Positions 12,932 to 24,896 of a stretch of DNA of 35,936 bases are shown here, in pieces (positions within the stretch are counted from its first letter, which is position 1; each line of letters starts with the position of its first letter). Below the pieces are notes generated by a model. That model saw nothing but the letters and a program-made list of their open reading frames with translations. It ran no database searches and had not been told where the DNA came from. A program made the translations under genes and the position numbers. The stretch is taken from positions 1 through 35,936 of the forward strand of contig NZ_RWKW01000024.1 of NCBI RefSeq assembly GCF_003970795.1. Reading direction: 5' to 3'. Source of the stretch: Aquibium carbonis (GTDB lineage Bacteria > Pseudomonadota > Alphaproteobacteria > Rhizobiales > Rhizobiaceae).

Positions 12932-14407
12932 TTGGCCGTCGGGGCGATCCTGCGCGGAACCGGTGCGCGCCTCGCGGCGCTGATGAAGACGACGGCGGCG
13001 CGGCTGTCGGCGCTCTACCTCCTGCTCTTCGGCGTCTGTGCGATCGGGCTCGTGGTCTACATGACCTCGGTGTCGGTGCGCATTCTCGCCGCCCAGACGC
13101 AGGAGACCATCAACGAGGAATCGATGAGCCTCGTGCGCGCCTATGAGCGCGGCGGCCTGCCCTTCCTGGTGCGCGTGGTGGAGCAACGCGCCCGCCAGCC
13201 CGGCGCCAATCTCTACCTGATCGCCGATCCGAACGGCCGCATCCTTTCCGGCAACGTGGAAAACCTGGAGCCCGGCGTGCTGGACACGCTCGGCTGGACG
13301 CCGCGCCCGTTTCTCTACAAGCGCTATGGCGAACGCGGGCCATTGCAGGCGCCAGCCGAGGACGGCAGCACCACCGCTGCCGACACGACGCCGCCGCACG
13401 CGGCCATGGCGCTGGTGCTGCGCCTTCCCAACCAGCTGATCCTTCTGGTCGGCCGCGACCTCGGCGAACCGGAGCGGTTCCGCCGCGTGGTGCAGCGCGC
13501 CCTGATCCTGGCGCTGGGCACGATGGGGCTCGGCGCCTTTCTCATCTGGTATTTCGTCGGCCGCACGGCGCTGCGCCGCATCGACAGCGTGTCGGAGGCG
13601 AGCCGGCGCATCATGGGCGGCGACCTGTCAGGGCGCCTGCCGGTGACCGGCGCCAGCGACGAGTTCGACCGCCTGTCGGAGAACCTGAACGCCATGCTGG
13701 CCCGCATCGCGGTGTTGAACGAGGGCCTGAAGCAGGTGTCCGACAACATTGCCCACGACCTCAAGACGCCGCTGACGCGCCTGCGCAGCCGCGCCGAGAC
13801 GACGCTGTCGAGCGCCCGCGACGAAGGCGATTACCGTGCCGCGCTGGAAGCGACGATCGCCGAATCCGATCAGCTGATCCGCACCTTCAACGCCATCCTG
13901 ATGATCTCGCGGCTGGAGGCCGGCTACTCGGCCGAACAGACCGAGACGCTCGACCTCGCAGCAGTCGTGGCCGACGTGGTGGAACTCTACGAGCCGCTGG
14001 CGGAAGACCATGGCGTGGCGCTGGAAACGCGCATCGATGGCCGGCTGGTGGTGAACGGCAACCGCGAACTCCTGGCCCAGGCCTTGTCAAACGTGATCGA
14101 CAACGCCATCAAGTACTGCGCGGGCCATGCCGAGACCCCCCTCGTGCGCGTGACGGCGACCCGCGCGGGAGGAAACGTGCAGATCGAGATATCCGACAAT
14201 GGTCCCGGCATCGAGCCGGCTGATCGCGCCAGGGCCACCGAACGCTTCGTGCGGCTGGAGAAGAGCCGGTCGCAGCCGGGCTCGGGACTTGGTCTCAGTC
14301 TCGCCAAGGCGGTGCTGGGCTTTCACCGGGGGAGCCTGGAGCTCGGCGACGCAGAGCCCGGCCTGAAGGTCATCATGACGATCCCGGCGCGGCAGGGTAC
14401 GGCGTGA
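12932..14407 (+). CDS. Sensor histidine kinase, partner of the degP-linked regulator
   Basis: This 491-residue membrane kinase has a first helix at about residues 24-46, a periplasmic domain of about 140 residues and a second helix at about 185-210. A HAMP domain follows (about 211-263). The HisKA histidine is H275 in NIAHDLKTPLTRLR. The N box (NVIDNAIKYC), G1 (DNGPGIE) and G2 (GSGLGLSLAKA) motifs are complete. The start is either TTG 12932, right after the regulator stop, or ATG 12983 (MKTTAARLSALYLL), which begins nearer the first helix; TTG keeps the genes adjacent but needs a rare start codon. The last four bases overlap the glnE start, so this pair and glnE are probably one operon. Confidence 0.86.
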   Translation: MAVGAILRGTGARLAALMKTTAARLSALYLLLFGVCAIGLVVYMTSVSVRILAAQTQETINEESMSLVRAYERGGLPFLVRVVEQRARQPGANLYLIADPNGRILSGNVENLEPGVLDTLGWTPRPFLYKRYGERGPLQAPAEDGSTTAADTTPPHAAMALVLRLPNQLILLVGRDLGEPERFRRVVQRALILALGTMGLGAFLIWYFVGRTALRRIDSVSEASRRIMGGDLSGRLPVTGASDEFDRLSENLNAMLARIAVLNEGLKQVSDNIAHDLKTPLTRLRSRAETTLSSARDEGDYRAALEATIAESDQLIRTFNAILMISRLEAGYSAEQTETLDLAAVVADVVELYEPLAEDHGVALETRIDGRLVVNGNRELLAQALSNVIDNAIKYCAGHAETPLVRVTATRAGGNVQIEISDNGPGIEPADRARATERFVRLEKSRSQPGSGLGLSLAKAVLGFHRGSLELGDAEPGLKVIMTIPARQGTA

Positions 14408-17349
14408 GCGGTCGAATGGGCGCCGACTGGTTTGGAACGTCGCCGCGTCGGCTGGAGCCGATCGATCCCGAACGTGCGGCGGCCGAGCTGCAGGACGTGC
14501 TGTCCTCCGCGGGCGAGGCCGGCTGCCACCGCCTTGCCGGACTGGCGCAGGCACGCCCGGAGATCGCCGCCTTCCTGGCCGGCGCGATGTCGCTGTCGAG
14601 CTATGTGCGCGACACGCTGCGCCGCCGCCCGCAAATGCTCGAGCCGCTGTTCGACGTGGGCTGGGAAACGCGCGTCGACGCGATCACCGACGAGGTCCGC
14701 GCCGCCTGGTCGGTCGACGGCGTGACCGAAAAATCGCTGATGGCCGAATTGCGCCGGCTGAAGACCGAAGCGCATGTGCTGATCGCGCTCGCCGACCTCG
14801 CGGGCGTCGCGGAAGCCGCGACGAGCGTGCGCCTGCTGAGCGCGCTCGCAGACGCCGCCGTCGGCGCGGCGATCGACTTCCTGCTGCGCGAGGCGCACGA
14901 CCAGGGCAAGCTGAACCTGCCCGACCGCGACCGGCCCGGCGAGGGCTCCGGCTTCGTCGTGCTCGGCATGGGCAAGCTCGGCGCCGGCGAGCTCAACTTC
15001 TCCTCCGACATCGACCTGATCCTGTTCTTCGAGGCCGACGCCCCGGCGATCAGGGATCCGCTGGACGCGACCGACCTGTTCTCGCGGCTGGCGCGGCGTC
15101 TGATCCGGATCCTGTCGGACCGCACCGAGCATGGCTATGTCTTCCGCACCGATCTGCGCCTGCGGCCCGACCCCGGCTCGACGCCGCTGGCGATCCCGGT
15201 GGAGGCGGCGCTGAACTACTACGAAGGCCGAGGCCAGAATTGGGAACGCGCCGCCATGATCAAGGCGCGGCCGGTGGCCGGCGACTTCGAGGCCGGCATG
15301 GGGGTGCTGAAGGAATTGCAGCCCTTCGTCTGGCGGAAATACATGGACTATGCCGCCATCGCCGACGTGCATTCGATCAAGCGCCAGATCCATGCCCACA
15401 AGGGTCATGGCGAGATTGCCGTGCGCGGCCACAACGTCAAGCTCGGCCGGGGCGGCATCCGCGAGATCGAGTTTTTCGTCCAGACTCAGCAGCTGATCGC
15501 GGGCGGGCGCTTTCCCGAACTGCGCGGCCGCGAGACGGTGGCGATGCTGGAGCGGCTGACCGAGCGCGGCTGGATCGACGCGGATGCCTGCGCCTCGCTG
15601 ACCCGGCAATACTGGTTCCTGCGCGACGTCGAGCACGCCATCCAGATGGTGGCCGACGAACAGGCGCACGACCTGCCGGAAGACGACGCGGGGCTGGAGC
15701 GGATCGCCCGCATGCGCGGCTTCGCCTCGGCCGAAGCTTTCTCGGAAGCCTTTCGGGCCTCGCTGAAGGAGGTGGAGAGCCACTACGCGGCGCTGTTCGA
15801 GACCGCGCCGCAGCTGTCGGCCGGCGTCGGCAACCTCGTCTTCACCGGCGACGTCGACGATCCCGACACGCTGCAGACGCTGTCCAGCCTCGGCTTCGAG
15901 CGCCCGAGCGACATCTGCCGCGTCATTCGCACCTGGCATTTCGGACGCTACCGCGCGACGCGCTCGGCCGAAGCGCGCGAGCGGCTGACGGAGCTGACGC
16001 CGGCCTTGCTGGCGGCTTTCGGCCGCACGCGCCGGGCCGACGAGGCGATCATCCGCTTCGACGAATTCCTCGCAGGCCTGCCGGCGGGGATCCAGCTCTT
16101 CTCGCTGCTGCAATCCAACCCGGGCCTGCTGCAGCTGCTGGCCAACATCATGGGCGCGGCCCCGCGGCTGGCCGCCATCATCACCCGCCGCCCGCATGTC
16201 TTCGACGGGCTGCTGGACCCGCTCTTGATGTCGGAACTGCCCAACAAGGCCTATCTGGCGGCGCGGCTGGAAAGCTTTCTCGCCGCCGCGACCATCTATG
16301 AGGAGCGGCTCGACCGGCTGCGCATCTTCGCCGCCGAGCAGAAGTTCCTGATCGGCATCCGCCTGCTGACCGGTGCGATCGACGCGGCGCGCGCGGGCAA
16401 GGCCTTTTCCGACCTCGCCGACCTGACGATCGGTGCCGCCTTCGACGCCGTCGTCGCCGAATTCGCCCGCCGCCACGGTCACGTGCCGGGCGGCCGCGCG
16501 GTGGTTCTCGGCATGGGCAAGCTCGGCAGCCGCGAATTGACGGCAGGGTCAGACGTCGACGTCATCCTGCTCTACGACCATGATTCGGACGCCGAGGAGA
16601 GCGACGGCGACAAGCCGCTGGCGCCATCGCAATATTATGCACGACTGACGCAGCGCGTGATTGCCGCCGTCTCGGCGCCGACCGCCGAGGGCGTGCTCTA
16701 CGAGATCGATCTGAGGCTGCGCCCGTCCGGCAACAAGGGGCCGGTGGCGACCTATGTCGAGGCCTTCCGGAAATACCAGAAGACGGAAGCCTGGAGCTGG
16801 GAGCACATGGCGCTGACGCGCGCCCGCGTGGTGGCCGGCGACGAAGGGCTTGCCGCCGCGGTGGCCGACGACGTCGCCGCGATCCTCGCCGCCCCGCGCG
16901 ACCGCGCCAGGCTCCTGAAAGACGCCTGCGAGATGCGCGCCATCATCGAAACCGAAAAGCCGCCGCGCGACGGCTGGGACCTCAAGCTCATCCCGGGCGG
17001 GCTGATCGACCTCGAATTCATCGCCCAGACGGCCGGCCTGCTCGGCGAACTGGACGGCGACACCCGCACCACCTCCACCGCCGAGGCGCTGGCCCGGCTG
17101 TCGCCGGGCTTCTGCGAGGCGCAGGCGCGCGACGACCTGGTGGCGGCTTACCGGCTGTTCATGGGGCTGACGCAGGTGTCGCGGCTGTGCCTCACCGGCG
17201 CCATAGACCGCAAGGACATGCCGCCCGGCCTTGCCGACCTGTTGCTCGCCAACACGGACCTGCCCGAGATGGCCGTGCTCGAGGCCCATATCCGCGAAAC
17301 GGCGAAGCGGGTGAGGACGGTGTTCGACGCGGTGGTGTGCGGGAAGTAG
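14404..17349 (+). CDS. glnE: Bifunctional glutamine synthetase adenylyltransferase/deadenylylase GlnE
   Basis: This 981-residue enzyme adds AMP to, and removes it from, glutamine synthetase in response to PII state and glutamine. It has two nucleotidyltransferase domains, each with its GKLG and SDxD motifs. The N-terminal deadenylylase motif is FSSDIDLI (D202, D204), and the C-terminal adenylylase motif is GSDVDVIL (D717, D719). The helical linkers include FVQTQQLIAGG and LEFIAQTAGL, the glutamate/glutamine-rich family signatures. Length and domain order are normal for alphaproteobacteria. The GTG start overlaps the upstream kinase stop by four bases; an ATG twelve bases further in is also possible. 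The overlap suggests co-translation with the two-component pair, although no regulatory link is known. Confidence 0.95.
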   Translation: MSGRMGADWFGTSPRRLEPIDPERAAAELQDVLSSAGEAGCHRLAGLAQARPEIAAFLAGAMSLSSYVRDTLRRRPQMLEPLFDVGWETRVDAITDEVRAAWSVDGVTEKSLMAELRRLKTEAHVLIALADLAGVAEAATSVRLLSALADAAVGAAIDFLLREAHDQGKLNLPDRDRPGEGSGFVVLGMGKLGAGELNFSSDIDLILFFEADAPAIRDPLDATDLFSRLARRLIRILSDRTEHGYVFRTDLRLRPDPGSTPLAIPVEAALNYYEGRGQNWERAAMIKARPVAGDFEAGMGVLKELQPFVWRKYMDYAAIADVHSIKRQIHAHKGHGEIAVRGHNVKLGRGGIREIEFFVQTQQLIAGGRFPELRGRETVAMLERLTERGWIDADACASLTRQYWFLRDVEHAIQMVADEQAHDLPEDDAGLERIARMRGFASAEAFSEAFRASLKEVESHYAALFETAPQLSAGVGNLVFTGDVDDPDTLQTLSSLGFERPSDICRVIRTWHFGRYRATRSAEARERLTELTPALLAAFGRTRRADEAIIRFDEFLAGLPAGIQLFSLLQSNPGLLQLLANIMGAAPRLAAIITRRPHVFDGLLDPLLMSELPNKAYLAARLESFLAAATIYEERLDRLRIFAAEQKFLIGIRLLTGAIDAARAGKAFSDLADLTIGAAFDAVVAEFARRHGHVPGGRAVVLGMGKLGSRELTAGSDVDVILLYDHDSDAEESDGDKPLAPSQYYARLTQRVIAAVSAPTAEGVLYEIDLRLRPSGNKGPVATYVEAFRKYQKTEAWSWEHMALTRARVVAGDEGLAAAVADDVAAILAAPRDRARLLKDACEMRAIIETEKPPRDGWDLKLIPGGLIDLEFIAQTAGLLGELDGDTRTTSTAEALARLSPGFCEAQARDDLVAAYRLFMGLTQVSRLCLTGAIDRKDMPPGLADLLLANTDLPEMAVLEAHIRETAKRVRTVFDAVVCGK

Positions 17350-17416: not shown

Positions 17417-18466
17417 TCAGGCGCCGATCTTGAACACCTTGCGGGCATTGTCCTCGAAGAACTGCTTCAGCCCGGCTGCGCCGATCGGCATCTGCTCGAG
17501 GATGCCGATCTCCGACTGGACGAACTGCCAGGGGTAGTCCATCGCGTACATGATGCGGTCGGCCCCGATCACCTCGCGCACGAACATCACCGGCGGGGCC
17601 CAGCTGACGCCGCTGCTGGTGTAGTAGAAGTTCTCCTTGAGATAGTCGCTCGCCTTGCGCTTCAGCGGATGGACATGCGGGTAGCGCTTCGAGACGGAGA
17701 TGTGGCCGTGCATGAAGTCGATGCGCGACAGCCAGTAGGGCAACGCCTCGCCGCAGTGGCCGAGCACGATCTGGAGCTTGGGAAAGCGGTCGAACAGGCC
17801 CGACACCACCAGCCGCAGCGCATGCAGCCCCGTCTCGCAAGCAAATCCGTAGACCGCCGCGTCGAGGCCACGCTTCAGGAACGGCTCGATCATCTCGGCC
17901 GGCGGGGTCTGCGGGTGGAGATAGATCGGCACGCCCAGCGCTTCGGCCGCCTCGAAGATCTCCCAATACTGCTCGTCGTCGAGATAGGTGCCGAGCGTGT
18001 GGGAATTGAGGATGCCGCCGCGCAGCCCGAGCTTGGTGACGGCGCGCTCGAGTTCCTTGGCGGCATTCGTCGGATCGAGCGGGCTGAAGGCGGCCAGGCC
18101 GACATAGCGATCCGGATGCCGTGCGATGCCCTCGGCGAGTTCGTCGTTGAAGCGCGTGGCGAGCACCGAGGCTTCCGTCGGTCCGAAGATCTGCACGCCC
18201 GGCGAGGTCAGCGACAGGACGGCGATGTCGATGCCGGAATCGTCCATGTCGCGCAGACGCTCCTCGTCGATGTCCTGGATGCGCCGGCTGTGGTCCTTCG
18301 CCTTCGGCGAATCGCCGGAAAAGAAGCCCCAGAGGCTGTGAAACCCCGGATCGCCGATCGTCTTCTCCTCGATCTCCTTGCGGTAGAGCCGGATCAGCTC
18401 CGGCGAGGCCCAGGCCTCTTCCGCGGCAATGCGCTTGTAGGGCGGATTGGGGTTGCGTTCGTTCAT
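17417..18466 (-). CDS. LigW-like metal-dependent decarboxylase (amidohydrolase family 2)
   Basis: This 349-residue protein is of the Amidohydro_2 (ACMSD) superfamily. The sequence pattern matches 5-carboxyvanillate decarboxylase (LigW): RIAAEEAW near the N-terminus with E16 as a metal ligand, H184 in IYLHPQT, H237 in GHCGEALPYWL, and D310 in YAMDYPWQ. These correspond to the Glu/His/Asp manganese site described for LigW. It lacks the HxH of hydrolytic members, so a non-oxidative decarboxylation of a phenolic carboxylate is more likely than hydrolysis. TGGAGGA seven bases before the ATG is an excellent ribosome site. It is the third gene of an operon with a TAXI-TRAP transporter, so the transported molecule is probably its substrate. 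Gamma-resorcylate decarboxylase-like activity is an alternative. The exact substrate cannot be read from sequence. Confidence 0.82.
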   Translation of the reverse strand: MNERNPNPPYKRIAAEEAWASPELIRLYRKEIEEKTIGDPGFHSLWGFFSGDSPKAKDHSRRIQDIDEERLRDMDDSGIDIAVLSLTSPGVQIFGPTEASVLATRFNDELAEGIARHPDRYVGLAAFSPLDPTNAAKELERAVTKLGLRGGILNSHTLGTYLDDEQYWEIFEAAEALGVPIYLHPQTPPAEMIEPFLKRGLDAAVYGFACETGLHALRLVVSGLFDRFPKLQIVLGHCGEALPYWLSRIDFMHGHISVSKRYPHVHPLKRKASDYLKENFYYTSSGVSWAPPVMFVREVIGADRIMYAMDYPWQFVQSEIGILEQMPIGAAGLKQFFEDNARKVFKIGA

Positions 18467-18495
18467 GGGGTCGTCCTCCAGCTGGTTGGGTTGGA

Positions 18496-20373
18496 TCAGG
18501 GGGCGGCGGAGCGCAGGCCGGGACCCGCTCCGGCCGCAAGGCGCCGCAGCGCGAACAGGAGGGCGACGGCCGCCACCGCCACCGTGATGGCCGCGGGGCT
18601 GGCGGCGCCGAAGATCGCCGTGCTGGCGCCGATGAAGGCGGCCACGGCCGCGGCCGCCAGCCGCCGCCAGCCGCCGCCATAGGCGCCGCGCCACGCGAGC
18701 ACTTCTGCCAGGATGACACCCGATGCCCCGACGCTGAGGCAGGAGATGGCGATCTCCAGCCAAGTGCCGTCGAGCAGCAGCGCGGTATTGAAGGCAAAGA
18801 CGAAGGGGATCAGGTAGGCCACGATCGCCAGCCGCATGCCGGCGAGCCCGGTCTGCCACATGTCGGAACCGGCCAGCGACGCCGCCGCATAGGAGGCGAT
18901 GGCGACGGGCGGAGTGAGCATCGACAGAAGGCCGAAGTAGAAGATGAAGAGGTGCGCGGCCATCGGCACGATGCCGGCCTTCACCAGCGCCGGGGCCAGC
19001 AGCACCGACACCACGACGTAGACCCCGGTGGTGGGCATGCCGACGCCGAGCACGATCGCGATCAGCGCCGTGACGGCGAGCAGCGGCAGCACGCCGCCCA
19101 GTTCGGCCACGCGGCCGAGCGCCAGCGTCAGCCCGAAACCGAGCCCAGAGATGTTGATGGTGCCGATGACGATGCCGGCGACCGCGCAGACGAGCAGCAC
19201 CGGGATCAGCGTGGCGCTGGAATCGCGCATCACCCCGACGAGGATGCCGAAGCGCGGCGCGCCGCGGGGCGCGGTGACGAGATAGAGCGCATAGGACGCG
19301 AAGGCGGAGTAGAGCGCGGCCTTGCCCGGCGCGTAACCGAGCCCGAACAGGAAGTACATGAGAACGCCGAGCGGCAGCAGCAGCGGCCAGGACTTGGCCA
19401 GCACCGGGCCGATGGGCGGCAGCTCCGACCGGTCGACGCCGACCAGGCCGTGTACGGCGGCGTAGCGGTCGACCTGGAGATAGAGCATTACGTAATAGGC
19501 GACGGCCGGCAGCAGCGCGGCCAGAACCACGCTCGCATAGGACACCTGCAGGAACTCGGCGATGACGAAGGCGGTTGCGCCCATGACCGGCGGCGCGATC
19601 TGGCCGCCATTCGACGCGACGGCCTCGATCGCCGCGGCATAGCGCGGGGGAAATCCCGAGCGCTTCATCATCGGAATGGTGACGACGCCGGTGCTCATGA
19701 CGTTGGCGACCGTCGAGCCTGACAGCGTGCCGAACAGGCTGGAGGCGATGATGGCGACCTTGGCCGGCCCGCCGCGCCGGTGGCCCATCGCCGCCATGGC
19801 GAGATCGGTCAGGATGCGGCTGCCGCCGACCGCGTTCAGCACCGAGCCGAAGACGATGAAGCCGAGGATCTGCGTGGCCCCGACGCCGAGCACCAGCCCG
19901 GGAATGCCGTTCGTGTCCGAGTAGAGATAGAGGATGAAGCGGCGCCAGGCGATGTCGGACGCCGACAGGATGCCGGGCAGGTGGGTGCCGAAGATGCCGT
20001 AGACGATGAAGGCGGCGGCGAGCGAAGCCAGCACCATGCCGCAATGGCGGCGCGTCGCCTCGATCGTGGCGGCGATCGCCACCACGGCCGGAATCCATTT
20101 CTCGGGGCCGCGGTTGACCGCATCGAGCAGCCAGGCCTCGTAATTGACCGCCAGCCACAGCCAGGACGCGAAGGCCGCCGCCCCGCCGATCCAGTCGAGC
20201 AGCTGGAGCCGGCCGCGCAGCGGCGCGGCCAAGAGGCCAGCCAGCGTGGCGAGACCGATCATCAGCGCCAGGTACTGCTCCGCGATGATCACGAAGCCGA
20301 GCCGGCGCGGGACGTCCAGAAGCCAAAGGATCCCGATGGCGGTGATGGGCACCGCCAAGTCCTTCCTGTTCAT
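18496..20373 (-). CDS. TRAP transporter fused permease (DctQ-DctM type, TAXI system)
   Basis: This 625-residue inner-membrane protein is very hydrophobic, with about 16-18 helices. The N-terminal four-helix part corresponds to the small DctQ-like subunit. The rest is the DctM-like translocation domain, with characteristic loops such as GSTVANVMSTG, GGQIAPPVMGATAF, GVGMPTTGVYV and MLTPPVAIASYAAASLAG. This fused form is the standard partner of TAXI binding proteins, one of which is encoded 34 bases upstream. The ATG at 20373 follows AGGGCGACGAG. It would use a sodium or proton gradient to import the captured solute. The decarboxylase gene follows 29 bases later, so all three are likely on one transcript. 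Confidence 0.92.
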   Translation of the reverse strand: MNRKDLAVPITAIGILWLLDVPRRLGFVIIAEQYLALMIGLATLAGLLAAPLRGRLQLLDWIGGAAAFASWLWLAVNYEAWLLDAVNRGPEKWIPAVVAIAATIEATRRHCGMVLASLAAAFIVYGIFGTHLPGILSASDIAWRRFILYLYSDTNGIPGLVLGVGATQILGFIVFGSVLNAVGGSRILTDLAMAAMGHRRGGPAKVAIIASSLFGTLSGSTVANVMSTGVVTIPMMKRSGFPPRYAAAIEAVASNGGQIAPPVMGATAFVIAEFLQVSYASVVLAALLPAVAYYVMLYLQVDRYAAVHGLVGVDRSELPPIGPVLAKSWPLLLPLGVLMYFLFGLGYAPGKAALYSAFASYALYLVTAPRGAPRFGILVGVMRDSSATLIPVLLVCAVAGIVIGTINISGLGFGLTLALGRVAELGGVLPLLAVTALIAIVLGVGMPTTGVYVVVSVLLAPALVKAGIVPMAAHLFIFYFGLLSMLTPPVAIASYAAASLAGSDMWQTGLAGMRLAIVAYLIPFVFAFNTALLLDGTWLEIAISCLSVGASGVILAEVLAWRGAYGGGWRRLAAAAVAAFIGASTAIFGAASPAAITVAVAAVALLFALRRLAAGAGPGLRSAAP

Positions 20374-20407
20374 GCTCGTCGCCCTGTGATCGGCGGCCTT
20401 GCGGCCG

Positions 20408-21403
20408 TCAGTCCGCCATGCCGGCGTCGCGCGCGGCGTTGGCCTCGGTCCACATGCCCTTGCCCTCGTAGAAGACAACCGCCGCGGGATGGTAGGGGAC
20501 GGTGTTGGAGGGGGTTGAGAACCGTTCCTGAGCGGCGCCGCCGAGGGCCGGATAGTCGGTCTTCAGCTGCGGCAGGCTCTCGTACAGGGCTTCCAGGATC
20601 GCGGTGGCGTCCTCGTCGGCCATGTCCGCGCCGACGGTCAGGAAGACGTCGAAGGAGGCGACCGTGACCGGCTCCGTCACTTCCGGCAGGCGCGGGTTGG
20701 GATTGATGGTGGTGAGATAGGTGCCCTGGAACGCGGCGTCGGCCTTCTCGGTCGTCGCGTTCTCGCCCTCGATGCTGACATAGCGGATGCCGCCGGAGAT
20801 CGAGGCGTGCGCCTGCTGGGTGAGCGGGATGCCGACCGCGATCAAGGTCGCGTCGAGGCTGTTCTCGGTCAGGCGCTCCATGCCGGGTCCAAGGCCTGCG
20901 ACGGTCTCGGCCTCGACGTCCGACACGGCCAGGCCGCCGAGTTCGAGGATCGTCCGGGACAGCTGGCTCATCGCCTTCAGCGCGCTGAGATCGGTGACGA
21001 CGCGCTTGCCCTTCAGATCCGCGACCGTCTTGATGCCGGAATCGTTGCGGGCCACGAGCGCGACGTTGAGCGGCCACAGCCGTGCGAGCACGCGCAGATC
21101 CTTCGCCTGGTCGCCGAACACGCCGGCCCGCGCCTCGCCGAGGTCGAGGCTGGAATTCAGCCCCATCGACACCTCGCCGGCCGCGATCAGCGGCAGGTAG
21201 ACGGACGAGCCCGTATAGGGCTGCACCGTGACCTGCTTGCCGAGCTTGTCCTGCAGAGCGGCGGCGATGCCGCCGCCGATCGTGTAGTAGATGGTTCCCT
21301 GCGGGTTGGTGCCGAGCGTGTAGCGGTCGGCGGCTCCGGCCGCGGTGGAACCAAGGCCGATCATCGCGGCAACGGCAAGTCCAGCGTACTGACGCCAGTT
21401 CAT
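20408..21403 (-). CDS. TAXI-family TRAP solute-binding protein
   Basis: This 331-residue periplasmic protein has a signal peptide cleaved after about residue 24 (GSTAAGAA). The mature N-terminus RYTLGTNPQGTIYYTIGGGIA is the TAXI signature (type I TRAP binding protein, 'TRAP-associated extracytoplasmic immunogenic'). Later blocks typical of the family are ELGEARAG-like (LDLGEARAGVFG), LKGKRVVTDLSALKAM and PYHPAAVVFYEGKGMW. GGGAGGA five bases before the ATG supports the start. It captures the substrate for the permease encoded next. Ligands of most TAXI proteins are unknown; the decarboxylase in the operon hints at an aromatic or heteroaromatic carboxylate. Confidence 0.92.
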   Translation of the reverse strand: MNWRQYAGLAVAAMIGLGSTAAGAADRYTLGTNPQGTIYYTIGGGIAAALQDKLGKQVTVQPYTGSSVYLPLIAAGEVSMGLNSSLDLGEARAGVFGDQAKDLRVLARLWPLNVALVARNDSGIKTVADLKGKRVVTDLSALKAMSQLSRTILELGGLAVSDVEAETVAGLGPGMERLTENSLDATLIAVGIPLTQQAHASISGGIRYVSIEGENATTEKADAAFQGTYLTTINPNPRLPEVTEPVTVASFDVFLTVGADMADEDATAILEALYESLPQLKTDYPALGGAAQERFSTPSNTVPYHPAAVVFYEGKGMWTEANAARDAGMAD

Positions 21404-21466
21404 CGCATTCCTCCCATGTGTGTTTCGCGCAGCGGTCGCGACCGTGCGGCTCTCCCTGGGGAAGCA

Positions 21467-21495
21467 TTGAACCGGACTTTGATTGTGAATAAAAT
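21467..21495 (+). promoter_or_regulatory. Sigma70-like promoter for the lysR gene
   Basis: TTGAAC at 21467-21472 and TAAAAT at 21490-21495 are separated by exactly 17 bases, close to the housekeeping consensus. Transcription would begin near 21502, leaving a leader of about 29 bases before the GTG start of the regulator. The -10 box lies inside the dyad described at 21486-21516. Confidence 0.65.
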
Positions 21496-21516
21496 CGAAA
21501 AATTCGAAACCATTCA
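21486..21516. promoter_or_regulatory. Two-shell dyad operator, probable LysR binding site
   Basis: An inner inverted repeat TCGAA-N3-TTCGA (21495-21507) fits the LysR-type T-N11-A pattern. An outer pair TGAAT (21486-21490) and ATTCA (21512-21516) has exactly the same centre, base 21501. The dyad covers the -10 box of the lysR promoter, which suggests negative autoregulation, and lies about 83-113 bases upstream of the divergent transporter start, a usual place for activation by a LysR protein. Confidence 0.65.
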
Positions 21517-21530
21517 TGCGGTGACTTCAA

Positions 21531-22436
21531 GTGAGTATCGAGAGCCAGCTGACGCTGAAGCAGCTTCGCGCCTTCGCGGCGGTGTACCGGCGCGGCAAGC
21601 TCGCCGCCGCCGCCGAGGAACTGGGCGTGACCCAGTCGGCCGTCAGCGTGCTGATCCGCCAGGTGGAGGAGACCCTGGGCACGCGGCTGTTCGACCGCAC
21701 CACGCGCTCGCTGGTGCCGACCCCGGCCGCCGAGGACGCGTTCGGCGTCGCCGAGCGCATTCTCCAGGACGTGCAGACGCTGTCGAGCAACTTTCGCGAT
21801 CTGAGCGCGGGCGGTCGCGGCCGGGTGCGCATCGCCGCGACACCGGCGACGGCAGCGGCGTTCCTGCCGAAGACGGCGCGGCGATTTGCGAGGCGATACG
21901 CCAATGTCGGGCTGCTGATCGACGACTGCGCGCCCAACCAGTTCCTGCAGCACATCGAGGCGGAACGGGTGGATTTCGGCCTCGGCACGCCGCCGCCGGA
22001 GGGTGGCGAGTTCACCAGCCGCATCGTGCGCGCGGACCGGATCCAGCTGGTCTGCGCCCGCGATCATCCCTTCGCCGAACGCGCCAGCGTGCGCTGGGCC
22101 GAGCTGGCCGGGGAAACGCTGATCGTCTTCCGGCCCGGCTACGGCGTGCGCCAGCTGATCGATCAGACCCTATTGAAGAACGGCGTCGAACCGGCGATCC
22201 GCCACGAGGTGGGCTTTCTGGCGACCGCCGCCTGGATGGCGGCCAGCGGGCTCGGCGTCACCATCCTGCCGGCCGCCCTCGCCGAAATGGAAAAACGTTC
22301 CGAACTGGCCATCGTGCCGCTGGTGGAGCCGGCCATGTCGCGGTCGATCGCGCTGGTGGCGAAGAAGGGACGGTCGCTGTCGCCGCCCTGCCGCCTGTTC
22401 GTCGACATGCTGTTCGAGGACATGGGGGCGTCGTGA
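21531..22436 (+). CDS. LysR-type transcriptional regulator
   Basis: This 301-residue protein has an N-terminal winged helix-turn-helix (about residues 5-65: LTLKQLRAFAAVYRRGKLAA, then ELGVTQSAVSVLIRQ). A linker helix and a periplasmic-binding-like effector domain (about 92-295) follow. It is divergent from the TAXI-TRAP-decarboxylase operon and almost certainly controls it, with the substrate or its decarboxylated product as the likely co-inducer. GTG 21531 is the start that gives a standard N-terminus (MSIESQLTLKQL); no strong ribosome site precedes it. Its promoter overlaps its own probable operator. Confidence 0.9.
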   Translation: MSIESQLTLKQLRAFAAVYRRGKLAAAAEELGVTQSAVSVLIRQVEETLGTRLFDRTTRSLVPTPAAEDAFGVAERILQDVQTLSSNFRDLSAGGRGRVRIAATPATAAAFLPKTARRFARRYANVGLLIDDCAPNQFLQHIEAERVDFGLGTPPPEGGEFTSRIVRADRIQLVCARDHPFAERASVRWAELAGETLIVFRPGYGVRQLIDQTLLKNGVEPAIRHEVGFLATAAWMAASGLGVTILPAALAEMEKRSELAIVPLVEPAMSRSIALVAKKGRSLSPPCRLFVDMLFEDMGAS

Positions 22437-22469: not shown

Positions 22470-24788
22470 CTACGCTGCCGCCTGCATCTGGCTGACCGGG
22501 ATGCGGACGGAGACGATCGTGCCCTTGCCCTCCTCCGACTTGATCTTCAGAACGCCGCCATGCATCTCGGTCAGCGAGCGCGAGATGGCGAGGCCGAGGC
22601 CGGAGCCGGTGTGGTTCTTGGAGAACTGGTTCTGCACCTGCTCGAAGGGCCGGCCGAGCTTTTTCAGCGCATCCTTCGGAATGCCGCAGCCATTGTCCTC
22701 GATCGACAGAACCAGGGCGCCGGCCACCTTGCGGGCGTGAACGACGATGTGGCCGTTCTGGCCGGTGAACTTCACCGCGTTGGACAGAAGATTGATGACG
22801 ATCTGCTTGATCGCACGCCGGTCGGCATGGAGCACGGTGCTGGCCGCGATGCGGGTTTCCACGGAAATCGCCTTCGCGTCGGCCTGAACGCTGATGACGC
22901 GGATCGCCTCGGCCATCAGCGCGTCGAGATCGATCTCCTCGCGCTGCAGGGCGAACTGGCCCGCTTCGATCTTCGACATGTCGAGGATGTCGTTGATGAC
23001 GCCGAGCAGATAGGTGCCGGCCGAATGGATGTCGCGTGCATATTCCTCGTAGCGGTCCGACCCGAGCTTGCCGAACAGGTTCGACTGCATCAGCTCCGAG
23101 AAGCCGATGATCGCGTTGAGCGGCGTCCGCAGCTCGTGCGACATGTTGGCGAGGAATTCCGACTTGGCGCGGCTGGCGGCCTCAGCGCGCTCGGTCTCGC
23201 GCATGTACTTGCGGTTCAGCTCCGACATCTCCAGCGCGCGCTCTTCCTCGGCGCGGCGCGCCAGGCTGAGATCGTGGATCGTCGCCATCAGGCGACGTTC
23301 GCTGTCGACCAGCTTTTCCTGGTTCTGCTTGAGAAGGGTGATGTCGGCGCCGACCGACACCGTGCCGCCGTCACGCGTCCTCGACTGGTTGACCTGCAGC
23401 CAGCGTCCGTCGGCCAGCTGCCGCTCGAAGGTGGCGCCGCCGTCGCGGCCGTTGGGGTTGGCGAGCTTGCGCTCCAGCGCGAAGGGCTTCATGCGCCGCT
23501 GCAGGTCTTCCCGCTCCAGGCCGGGCGCGACGTCGGCCTCGGCAAGGCCCATCTGCTCCTGGAACTTGGTGTTGCACATCACCAGCCGGTCCTCGGCGTC
23601 CCACAGCACGAAGGATTCCGAGATGTTCTCGATGGCGGTGCGAAGGCGCATGTCGGCCATCTCGGATTCGCGCGCCAGCTTGCGCTGCTCGGTGATGTCG
23701 ACGGCAATGCCGATCAGGTGGATTTCGGACGCCTCGGGGTCGATGACCTGGGCGCGGGCCCGCATCCACACCCAGTGCCCCAGTGCATGCTGCATCCGGA
23801 ACACGCGATCGATATGGTCGATCTTGCGCGAGACGATCTGGTTCGCCAGGTCGAACAGGTCGGCGTCCTCGGGATGGATGATCGCTGCCACCTCGCCGAA
23901 GGACAGCATCTCCTCGCTGGTTTCATAGCCGAGGAGGTCGTACATCGAGCGCGACCAGTACATCCGGCCCCGGCCCATGTCCCAGTCCCACAAGCCGCAG
24001 CGACCGCGAACGAGGGCGAGGTCGATGCGCTGGTGCGCCTGTTCGTAGATCCGGTCGGCGGTCTGGGCGCGGGAGGCCTGGCTGAAATAGGCGTAGAGGA
24101 TGATGATCAGCACCCCGGAGGTGATGACGAACAGCGTCACGTTGAGCGAGACCATGCGCCGCCACTCGGCGAAGACCACATCCTTCGAGGCGAGCGCCGC
24201 CGTCATTCCGCTCCCCGACGCCAGGGCGCTCGTGACGGCGTACCATTCCTCGCCGTCGATGGTCACGTCGAGCACGCCGGCGCGCGCGCCGAACAGGAAC
24301 AGAGGCTGCCCGCCGACGATGATGTGATCGAGGTCGCGGCCGTTCCAGCCGGAGGACGACGACGAGATGGCGACGACCTTCATCTCCGCATCGGTCACCG
24401 CCAGCACGTAGCGCAGTCCGAACGGTCCCATCGCCCCGGCATTGTCGACGAGGCGCTGGAGCGCGGCGGGATCGCCCTCCGAGGCGCTGGATTGCAGCGA
24501 AGCGGCGAGTTGGGCCGCACCGAGCGCGAGGATCATGCGGCCGGTGCGGTCGATGTCGTCGCGCCAGGCGATCATCGAGACCGTGCGCGCGGCCGCGATC
24601 ACGATGAGGAAGACGATGATGAGGGTGGGGATCGACCGGCGCAGGAAGGGCTCGGCGGCGATCAGCCGCTGATAGGCCGGGGCGGCCAGCACGCGCGCAT
24701 TGCCCGACAGTCCGGGAGGATTGCGCCGGCCGCTTCGCCGCGCAAAACTTCCCGTCTCGGGCGCGCTTCGCGCGTCCGCCTCCGCCAT
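22470..24788 (-). CDS. pleC: PleC-type cell-cycle sensor histidine kinase/phosphatase
   Basis: This 772-residue membrane protein has one helix at about residues 52-74, a periplasmic domain and a second helix at about 214-235. Two PAS regions follow: about 255-370 (GLWDWDMGRGRMYWS, HPEDADLFD, AVDITEQ), then one beginning AIENISESFVLWDAEDRLV. The kinase core has H551 in ANMSHELRTPLNAIIGFSE, NLLSNAVKF, DNGCGIP and GSGLGLAISRSL. The block between H and N boxes (LFGKLGSDRYEEYARDIHSA) is typical of the PleC/DivJ/PdhS group, which acts on DivK and PleD in alphaproteobacteria. The neighbourhood (glnE on one side, pepN on the other, ignoring the inserted block) matches pleC as I recall it in Sinorhizobium. 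ATG 24788 with GGAG upstream is preferred over a GTG at 24839. Confidence 0.78.
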   Translation of the reverse strand: MAEADARSAPETGSFARRSGRRNPPGLSGNARVLAAPAYQRLIAAEPFLRRSIPTLIIVFLIVIAAARTVSMIAWRDDIDRTGRMILALGAAQLAASLQSSASEGDPAALQRLVDNAGAMGPFGLRYVLAVTDAEMKVVAISSSSSGWNGRDLDHIIVGGQPLFLFGARAGVLDVTIDGEEWYAVTSALASGSGMTAALASKDVVFAEWRRMVSLNVTLFVITSGVLIIILYAYFSQASRAQTADRIYEQAHQRIDLALVRGRCGLWDWDMGRGRMYWSRSMYDLLGYETSEEMLSFGEVAAIIHPEDADLFDLANQIVSRKIDHIDRVFRMQHALGHWVWMRARAQVIDPEASEIHLIGIAVDITEQRKLARESEMADMRLRTAIENISESFVLWDAEDRLVMCNTKFQEQMGLAEADVAPGLEREDLQRRMKPFALERKLANPNGRDGGATFERQLADGRWLQVNQSRTRDGGTVSVGADITLLKQNQEKLVDSERRLMATIHDLSLARRAEEERALEMSELNRKYMRETERAEAASRAKSEFLANMSHELRTPLNAIIGFSELMQSNLFGKLGSDRYEEYARDIHSAGTYLLGVINDILDMSKIEAGQFALQREEIDLDALMAEAIRVISVQADAKAISVETRIAASTVLHADRRAIKQIVINLLSNAVKFTGQNGHIVVHARKVAGALVLSIEDNGCGIPKDALKKLGRPFEQVQNQFSKNHTGSGLGLAISRSLTEMHGGVLKIKSEEGKGTIVSVRIPVSQMQAAA

Positions 24789-24822
24789 CTGGTGGCTCCG
24801 ATCCTGTCTGGTGTCCCCGTAC

Positions 24823-24896
24823 GATTCGAAACGCCGCACATCCGAATCGTGACTAAAGAATCAAAGCCGATTCGCCTTGTCCAGTGTTCATGAGTC
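24823..24896. promoter_or_regulatory. Cluster of five GANTC (CcrM) sites upstream of pleC
   Basis: GANTC, the target of the cell-cycle methyltransferase CcrM, occurs at 24823-24827, 24844-24848, 24858-24862, 24869-24873 and 24892-24896, all in the upstream region of the pleC-like gene. Chance expectation is about one site per 256 bases in balanced DNA. The cluster suggests that methylation state, which changes as the replication fork passes, influences transcription here. Confidence 0.55.

Follow-up and report, generated by a model that had tools for sequence, protein, structure and literature searches.

In a stretch of 35,936 nucleotides from Aquibium carbonis (contig NZ_RWKW01000024.1; the whole stretch is called the window in what follows), a LysR-type regulator gene is divergent from three genes encoding a TAXI solute-binding protein, a fused TRAP permease and a metal-dependent decarboxylase related to LigW. 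These four genes probably constitute a mobile cassette for taking up and decarboxylating an aromatic or heteroaromatic carboxylate that has an ortho-hydroxyl group and is different from 5-carboxyvanillate, a reading to which we would give a probability of roughly 65%. In outline, an uptake-and-decarboxylation module is well supported by evidence that goes beyond the adjacency of the genes: the set recurs in relatives, one operator motif is conserved, and another family of binding proteins takes the place of TAXI-TRAP in some lineages. A preliminary description of this DNA had placed the LysR gene divergent from a TAXI, fused TRAP and decarboxylase operon; all four genes were found at those positions, and their families were established with profile models (Table 1).

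The decarboxylase and its active site

The top phmmer match of the decarboxylase was LigW from Novosphingobium (4INF, E 3.9e-103), with 161 of 338 aligned residues identical (48%), followed by LigW from SYK-6 and by gamma-resorcylate decarboxylases (gamma-RSD). An AlphaFold model based on a 39-row alignment (mean predicted local distance difference test score, 93.5) had its best PDB matches in LigW2/LigW from Novosphingobium, with a template modelling (TM) score of 0.95 and a root-mean-square deviation of 1.7-1.9; the TM score was 0.91 to SYK-6 LigW and 0.81-0.83 to gamma-RSD.

The roles of the LigW active-site residues are taken from the relevant statements in PMC6305744, PMC8187880 and PMC6031855. 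In LigW the metal is reported to be bound by Glu19, His188 and Asp314, surrounded by Arg58, Phe212, His241, Arg252 and Tyr317 (PMC6031855). The Glu/His/Asp pattern of LigW that had been noticed in the window enzyme proved genuine, as E16, H184 and D310 align with these three ligands. The equivalents of LigW H241, R252, F212 and M256 are also retained (H237, R248, F208 and M252), and three substitutions are found in the pocket, namely W313 for Tyr317, K55 for Arg58 and F49 for Tyr51. Trp313, though replacing the ring-stacking tyrosine, remains aromatic. Tyr51 and Arg58 of LigW are described as holding the C1 carboxylate, i.e. the carboxylate that remains on the product, and His241, Arg252 and Asp314 as the counterparts of residues binding the scissile carboxylate (PMC6305744). 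The conserved H237, R248 and D310, taken together with the changed F49 and K55, therefore suggest that the machinery for the scissile carboxylate is intact and that the site for the second carboxylate is altered. The metal motif of the enzyme is E16-E-A18 (E-x-A), unlike the Glu8-x-His10 motif given for gamma-RSD (PMC8187880); judging from this motif and from the LigW-type active site, a role as a hydrolase is unlikely.

A separate clade of LigW relatives

Relatives were collected from a scan of a genome collection (best 80 of 424), from plasmid matches and from 101 related genomes, and the counts given here refer to that sample. Loci, genomes and contigs are designated by L, G and C numbers; the window is contig C103 of genome G000, which totals 5.34 Mb. 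In a tree of 91 rows, obtained with a quick method, with Shimodaira-Hasegawa-like approximate likelihood ratio test (SH-aLRT) values as its only support and without the same-genome duplicates L024 and L030, the window enzyme falls in a clade of 31 rows (SH-aLRT 100). This clade lies within a larger group of 46 rows (support 90) that also holds L059 and a sister set of 14 rows, mainly from Burkholderiales. Novosphingobium LigW groups elsewhere, among loci carrying genes for FerD-like aldehyde dehydrogenases and for members of the lignostilbene oxygenase family, and the long branch of SYK-6 LigW belongs to neither.

For residue counts the six most distant rows, including SYK-6 LigW, were set aside beforehand, and the rows termed LigW-like have a function of their own that is only presumed from gene context. 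The column of Tyr317 holds Trp in all 31 rows of the clade, and Tyr in all 14 sister rows and all 40 LigW-like rows. The column of Arg58 is variable in the clade (K 15, I 8, L 3, M 2, R 2; one row without data), and holds Arg in 14/14 sister rows and 37/40 LigW-like rows. At the position of Tyr51, Phe is found in 30/30 clade rows, and the 40 LigW-like rows have Tyr (27), Phe (11) or His (2). Because the window enzyme belongs to this separate Trp313 clade, and because the LigW contacts to the C1 carboxylate are changed, 5-carboxyvanillate is probably not its substrate. As far as the residues allow a judgement, the enzyme would be a LigW in chemistry but not in substrate, and we would caution against annotating members of the Trp313 clade as LigW.

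A conserved putative LysR operator

Extraction of the intergenic regions gave 32 promoters, in 21 of which the TAXI gene comes first and in 11 the decarboxylase gene. They share one 46-bp motif with a consensus near TTcATgAATg-N5-AATTtTTCgaTTt, and leave-one-out runs recovered it at an unchanged location in 31 of the 32 regions, L061 being the failure. Since many rows are close kin, training of a matrix was restricted to the 21 TAXI-first promoters, and the 11 decarboxylase-first promoters (eight from named Betaproteobacteria, two alphaproteobacterial, and L059, which is unplaced) were then scanned with it. It outscored all 574 AT-rich background segments in 8/11 promoters, including those of five of the eight named Betaproteobacteria. 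When the comparison was extended to all 7815 segments, none beat L047, L051, L056, L059 or L068, and a single one beat L065, L069 and L072.

This single segment is L045 5184-5229, which precedes a pair of aldehyde dehydrogenase and decarboxylase genes in a Rhizobium. On the same contig the TAXI gene has a copy of its own in front of it (13011-13056), and the two copies score 20.0 and 23.5. The same operator therefore appears to link transport with decarboxylation even when the genes for them are separated. The conserved motif thus stands before the TAXI gene in some lineages and before the decarboxylase gene in others, and it would be the binding site of the LysR regulator, a relative of which adjoins the decarboxylase gene on 8/14 sister contigs (48-52% identity). 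No second site of note was found in the window beyond that at 21478-21523. When 18 genomes were searched with model R1, the window genome gave one site and no additional regulon member, 150 of 230 candidates having been scored.

Exchange of the binding protein

The decarboxylase-first operator regions come mainly from Betaproteobacteria, where a TctC-type protein usually replaces TAXI-TRAP. In the sister set, a gene of the TctC cluster lies directly downstream of the decarboxylase gene in 11/14 loci (the others are L061, L062 and L073). The enzyme of L033 is 83% identical to that of the window, yet a TctC-cluster gene is directly downstream there too. The TctC assignment was checked with Pfam for L065 and L033. 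Systems of the TctC and TAXI types have both been reported to import phthalates (PMC13040137), o-phthalate in the case of TAXI-TRAP (PMC11574862, PMC13040137).

The ligands of TAXI proteins named in PMC11574862 are glutamate and o-phthalate, besides one knockout phenotype that concerns a few aliphatic acids and glutamate. The window TAXI protein departs from the residues of the glutamate type, as defined by VcGluP and TtGluBP (the latter's numbering is used here). The stacking tyrosine (Y39) and S66 are retained, and Gln78 is replaced by S84, Thr187 by A189 and, with equivalence judged from numbering, Glu111 by L112 and Tyr186 by I188. Across 27 TAXI rows the position of Gln78 is occupied by Ser (24) or Gly (3). 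On these residues, glutamate is unlikely as the ligand of the window protein. It should be noted that VcGluP is reported to depend on Gln93, the equivalent of Gln78, which occurs in only 54% of TAXI proteins, and that mutants of its Glu125 and Tyr200 lost little affinity (PMC11574862).

Other TAXI-TRAP genes were met in the same genomes. A second pair in the window genome (L026, G000:C61, 8633-14878) lies with a PIG-L protein, a 4-oxalomesaconate tautomerase (548 bits, cut-off 440) and an amidohydrolase that in our reading resembles LigI, its best model being 4-sulfomuconolactone hydrolase with 271 bits, under the cut-off of 500; this region is a candidate for taking up 2-pyrone-4,6-dicarboxylate or a related compound. 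L125 and L126, from the genomes of L051 and L047, respectively, combine in one region Rieske dioxygenase genes, a short-chain dehydrogenase, another TAXI-TRAP pair and the c13 flavin hydroxylase. The dioxygenase genes are HcaE/HcaF-like, as judged by a model for L125 and by resemblance for L126, and L125 has an aldehyde dehydrogenase as well. This makes another aromatic TAXI-TRAP candidate.

Conservation and apparent movement of the cassette

The conservation in related genomes that the preliminary description had proposed as a check is indeed seen: the complete LysR-TAXI-TRAP-decarboxylase set, in the same order and orientation, was found in 19/30 relatives of the clade, and a further 3/30 have the three transport and decarboxylase genes without an adjacent LysR. 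Outside this count, the full set is carried by Aquibium sp. ELW1220 (L030, genome G004), the closest named relative in the sample, whose decarboxylase is 97% identical to that of the window. LysR is present together with a distant TAXI-TRAP (33-36% and 45%) in L045, L047 and L051, TctC stands in place of TAXI-TRAP in L033, and L037 and L038 have neither. In L035 there is a pair of dioxygenase genes with a resemblance to AndAc/AndAd that stays below the cut-off, and the contig of L070 starts within the decarboxylase gene.

As read from the neighbour lists, the genes around the set mostly vary between loci, with some neighbours shared among Maritimibacter loci, and the set is also borne by a Roseinatronobacter plasmid. 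The mostly differing neighbourhoods fit horizontal movement, and the cassette appears to move between lineages.

Genes attached to the cassette in relatives

The remark that no ring-cleavage or demethylase gene accompanies the set holds for the window, where none lies directly beside the four genes, but not for all relatives, some of which attach flavin hydroxylases, a Rieske dioxygenase pair and, once, an intradiol dioxygenase. In five loci from Paracoccaceae and Roseobacteraceae, a flavin hydroxylase and a second amidohydrolase follow directly after the decarboxylase gene, and a different flavin hydroxylase is attached in L044 and L053. The c13 flavin hydroxylase, which is adjacent in five loci (L039, L042, L043, L046, L076), was rejected as a fixed partner, as close orthologues (at least 60% identity) were found in 5 of the 21 genomes searched, which did not include those of L042, L043 and L046, and three of these five lie on contigs other than that of the decarboxylase (G036, G110, G113). 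In L039 (Anianabacter), the LysR gene is accompanied by those of a flavin hydroxylase and an intradiol dioxygenase, and both of the latter have orthologues on contig C183 of the window genome (77.5% and 72.6%). A phenolic product would be the theme common to these attached genes.

Residue 55 of the decarboxylase is associated with an adjacent oxygenase gene (the flavin hydroxylases and the L035 dioxygenase being counted), which is present in 8/13 rows with I, L or M and in 0/17 rows with K or R (Fisher p 0.0002; L070, without the residue, was dropped). This is only a hint, as the rows provide three independent pairs, too few for significance at 0.05 in a sign test.

Were the enzyme to yield vanillate, the genome should also encode a demethylase, and the check made for this reason covered those of the VanA type (VanA_C). 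Of 20 clade genomes, four (one being the window genome) have a match of at least 100 bits, five have weaker ones and 11 have none at E 0.001, as against six of seven sister or LigW-like genomes with a match of at least 100 bits.

Three further loci may be mentioned. Elsewhere in the window genome, another Amidohydro_2 gene is divergent from a VanA-type oxygenase gene (G000:C118:80425-82512). The region of C183 mentioned above (L175, 6703-16085) holds two intradiol dioxygenases, a gene of the iron-containing alcohol dehydrogenase family that we read as maleylacetate-reductase-like, a flavin hydroxylase, and genes resembling a branched-chain-type ATP-binding cassette transporter, and is likely a hydroxyquinol pathway cluster. 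A lone LigW-like amidohydrolase gene (45% identity) lies near insertion sequences on a Photobacterium damselae plasmid (L112, 2002-3036), with no annotated TAXI-TRAP nearby.

Gene set and coordinates

The TAXI and TRAP genes are separated by 34 bp and the TRAP and decarboxylase genes by 29 bp, all on one strand, which suggests that the three form one operon. Binding protein and permease both exceed the cut-offs of curated models and so belong to the TAXI-TRAP transporters; a signal-like segment was spotted by eye at the N-terminus of the former. The regulator has both domains of the LysR type and a divergent promoter with the conserved motif. A promoter scan gave two promoter-like matches against 0.5 expected, one of them overlapping the operator, and a terminator scan gave one match against 1.7 expected.

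Table 1. Coordinates of the cassette and its flanking genes in the window.
Feature	Position	Strand	Remarks
glnE (flank)	14404-17349	+	
Metal-dependent decarboxylase (Amidohydro_2; LigW-related, Trp313 subfamily)	17417-18466	-	349 aa; GGAGGA upstream; Amidohydro_2 146.5 bits (cut-off 26.4)
TRAP fused permease subunit (DctQM fusion)	18496-20373	-	625 aa; DctM 267.5 bits; TIGR02123 489.6 bits (cut-off 320.65)
TAXI solute-binding protein	20408-21403	-	331 aa; GGGAGGA upstream; NMT1_3 119.3 bits; TIGR02122 170.4 bits (cut-off 84.35)
Conserved putative LysR operator, TTcATgAATg-N5-AATTtTTCgaTTt type	21478-21523	-	Partly palindromic
LysR-type regulator, divergent	21531-22436	+	301 aa; GTG start; HTH_1 and LysR_substrate domains
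PAS histidine kinase (flank)	22470-24839	-	

Proposed function and alternatives

We propose that LysR, bound at its operator and in the presence of an inducer related to the substrate, would turn on the TAXI-TRAP-decarboxylase genes. The TAXI protein would capture an aromatic or heteroaromatic carboxylate with a hydroxyl group ortho to the carboxylate, and the fused permease would import it. The enzyme would then remove the carboxylate by the LigW/gamma-RSD route, with a divalent metal (Mn in LigW) on E16, H184 and D310, with H237 and R248 at the scissile carboxylate and with D310 as the proton donor; the expected products are CO2 and a phenol, which would feed pathways encoded elsewhere. Of the import and decarboxylation module originally suggested, what stands is the unit under one LysR, through the conserved set, the shared operator and the arrangement in L045; a LigW substrate does not sit well with F49, K55, W313 and the separate clade.

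Several observations weigh against this proposal. Phe in place of Tyr51 is not peculiar to the clade, being also found in 11/40 LigW-like and in 14/14 sister rows. The Arg58 column adjoins a gap and is sensitive to alignment: in SYK-6 LigW, which is a genuine 5-carboxyvanillate decarboxylase, it is occupied by Ala, with Arg in the column that follows. In the window enzyme, Lys55 might yet be the partner of a second carboxylate. VanA is strongly matched in the window genome (154 bits), which lacks a close orthologue of the c13 hydroxylase. No downstream pathway follows the set, the hydroxylase c57 having close orthologues in 4 of 38 decarboxylase-bearing genomes. Eight of the 30 clade relatives are without an adjacent orthologous TAXI-TRAP (among them L035 and L070, on contigs shorter than 5 kb), and the operator is absent in L061 and unconvincing in L066 (matched by 2 of the 574 AT-rich segments, beaten by 3 of the 7815) and L071 (17 and 22, respectively). 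Finally, the argument from the TAXI residues rests mainly on one position, because Glu125 and Tyr200 matter little in VcGluP and only 54% of the family has Gln93.

A functional LigW, importing 5-carboxyvanillate or 5-carboxyferulate and delivering vanillate or ferulate to a lignin pathway, is an unlikely alternative. LigW is the nearest solved relative, all its catalytic residues are kept, its specificity has been described as relatively broad (PMC11323797), and Lys55 could stand in for an arginine that does not hold its column even in SYK-6 LigW; the window genome also has VanA-type oxygenases and, close to a flavin hydroxylase on C185, two matches to intradiol dioxygenases. However, the Trp313 clade is apart from LigW, with Tyr51 and Arg58 replaced; genes of the FerD/LsdD type are not directly beside the set in the window, which is flanked by glnE and the histidine kinase; and strong VanA_C matches are far less frequent in genomes of the clade than in sister and LigW-like ones.

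Two other substrate classes appear distinctly improbable, to a similar degree. A cassette for resorcylate or a similar dihydroxybenzoate, whose resorcinol would enter the hydroxyquinol pathway on C183, is suggested by the hydroxylase and intradiol dioxygenase beside LysR in L039, the C183 orthologues of which cluster with a second intradiol dioxygenase and the iron-containing alcohol dehydrogenase family gene. The enzyme, however, has E-x-A rather than the E-x-H of gamma-RSD, and the link was rejected as a general rule, since besides their scarcity in decarboxylase-bearing genomes the c57 orthologues occur in 15 of the 101 relatives, 13 of which are without a close decarboxylase. A heteroaromatic acid, such as a hydroxypicolinate or a uracil-like carboxylate, would undergo the same chemistry: amidohydrolase-family enzymes are reported to decarboxylate 3,6-dihydroxypicolinate (PicC; PMC10142695) and 5-carboxyuracil (PMC6305744), and the altered C1-carboxylate contacts fit a monocarboxylate, but no pyridine or pyrimidine catabolic gene was recognized by eye in the neighbour lists, a dedicated search for such genes not having been made. 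Import of an unrelated solute such as glutamate, by a transporter merely sharing the operon with the decarboxylase, is very improbable: glutamate is reported as the ligand of the Vibrio and Thermus TAXI proteins (PMC11574862) and was assigned to one of Cereibacter from mutants (PMC12632250), but several positions that contact glutamate, Gln78 among them, hold other residues, the four genes keep together across many genera, and in L045 the operator couples a separated TAXI gene and decarboxylase pair.

An uptake-and-decarboxylation cassette of the kind proposed would provide a new ligand class for TAXI proteins, few ligands of which are known. With an enzyme, a regulator, an operator and two unrelated binding-protein families that are expected to share the ligand, this should be directly findable, and the natural exchange of binding proteins would amount to two independent reagents for finding it. 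The chances seem even that the Trp313 clade represents an undescribed LigW-like specificity, tied by one LysR and operator to interchangeable TAXI-TRAP or TctC proteins for the same ligand; it would then add a specificity to the decarboxylases. Such decarboxylases also serve for the enzymatic carboxylation of phenols.

Comparison with known systems

No description of TAXI-TRAP with a LigW-like decarboxylase was found in the open-licence PubMed Central literature, as judged from titles and the openings of abstracts. LigW and LigW2 (4INF, 4QRN, 4QS5, 4ICM) share with the window enzyme the fold (TM 0.95 to the first three, with 46-48% identity to these), the Glu/His/Asp metal site with E-x-A, and the residues corresponding to His237, Arg248, Phe208 and Met252. 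They differ in having Tyr317, Tyr51 and Arg58 where the window has Trp, Phe and Lys, in falling outside its clade, and in their association with FerD/LsdD lignin-dimer genes rather than with LysR and TAXI-TRAP; the pairing of FerD and LigW in the beta-5 pathway has been published (PMC11323797). The gamma-resorcylate (2,6-dihydroxybenzoate) decarboxylases (2DVT, 3S4T, 4QRO) have the same fold and presumably the same chemistry, but are 34-37% identical in structure alignment and have E-x-H in place of E-x-A.

As for transport, the TAXI-TRAP systems for o-phthalate, reported in Azoarcus CIB and proposed for the opa cluster of Pseudomonas PTH10, resemble the window by gene context, with TAXI and a fused permease beside genes of aromatic catabolism; there, however, the genes are those of phthalate catabolism, whereas the window has one decarboxylase and LysR. 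The betaproteobacterial loci found here, in which TctC-type proteins stand beside LigW-like decarboxylases, have a related LysR and operator and a sister lineage of the decarboxylase, but a different binding-protein family replaces TAXI-TRAP, and the enzyme keeps Arg58 and Tyr317.

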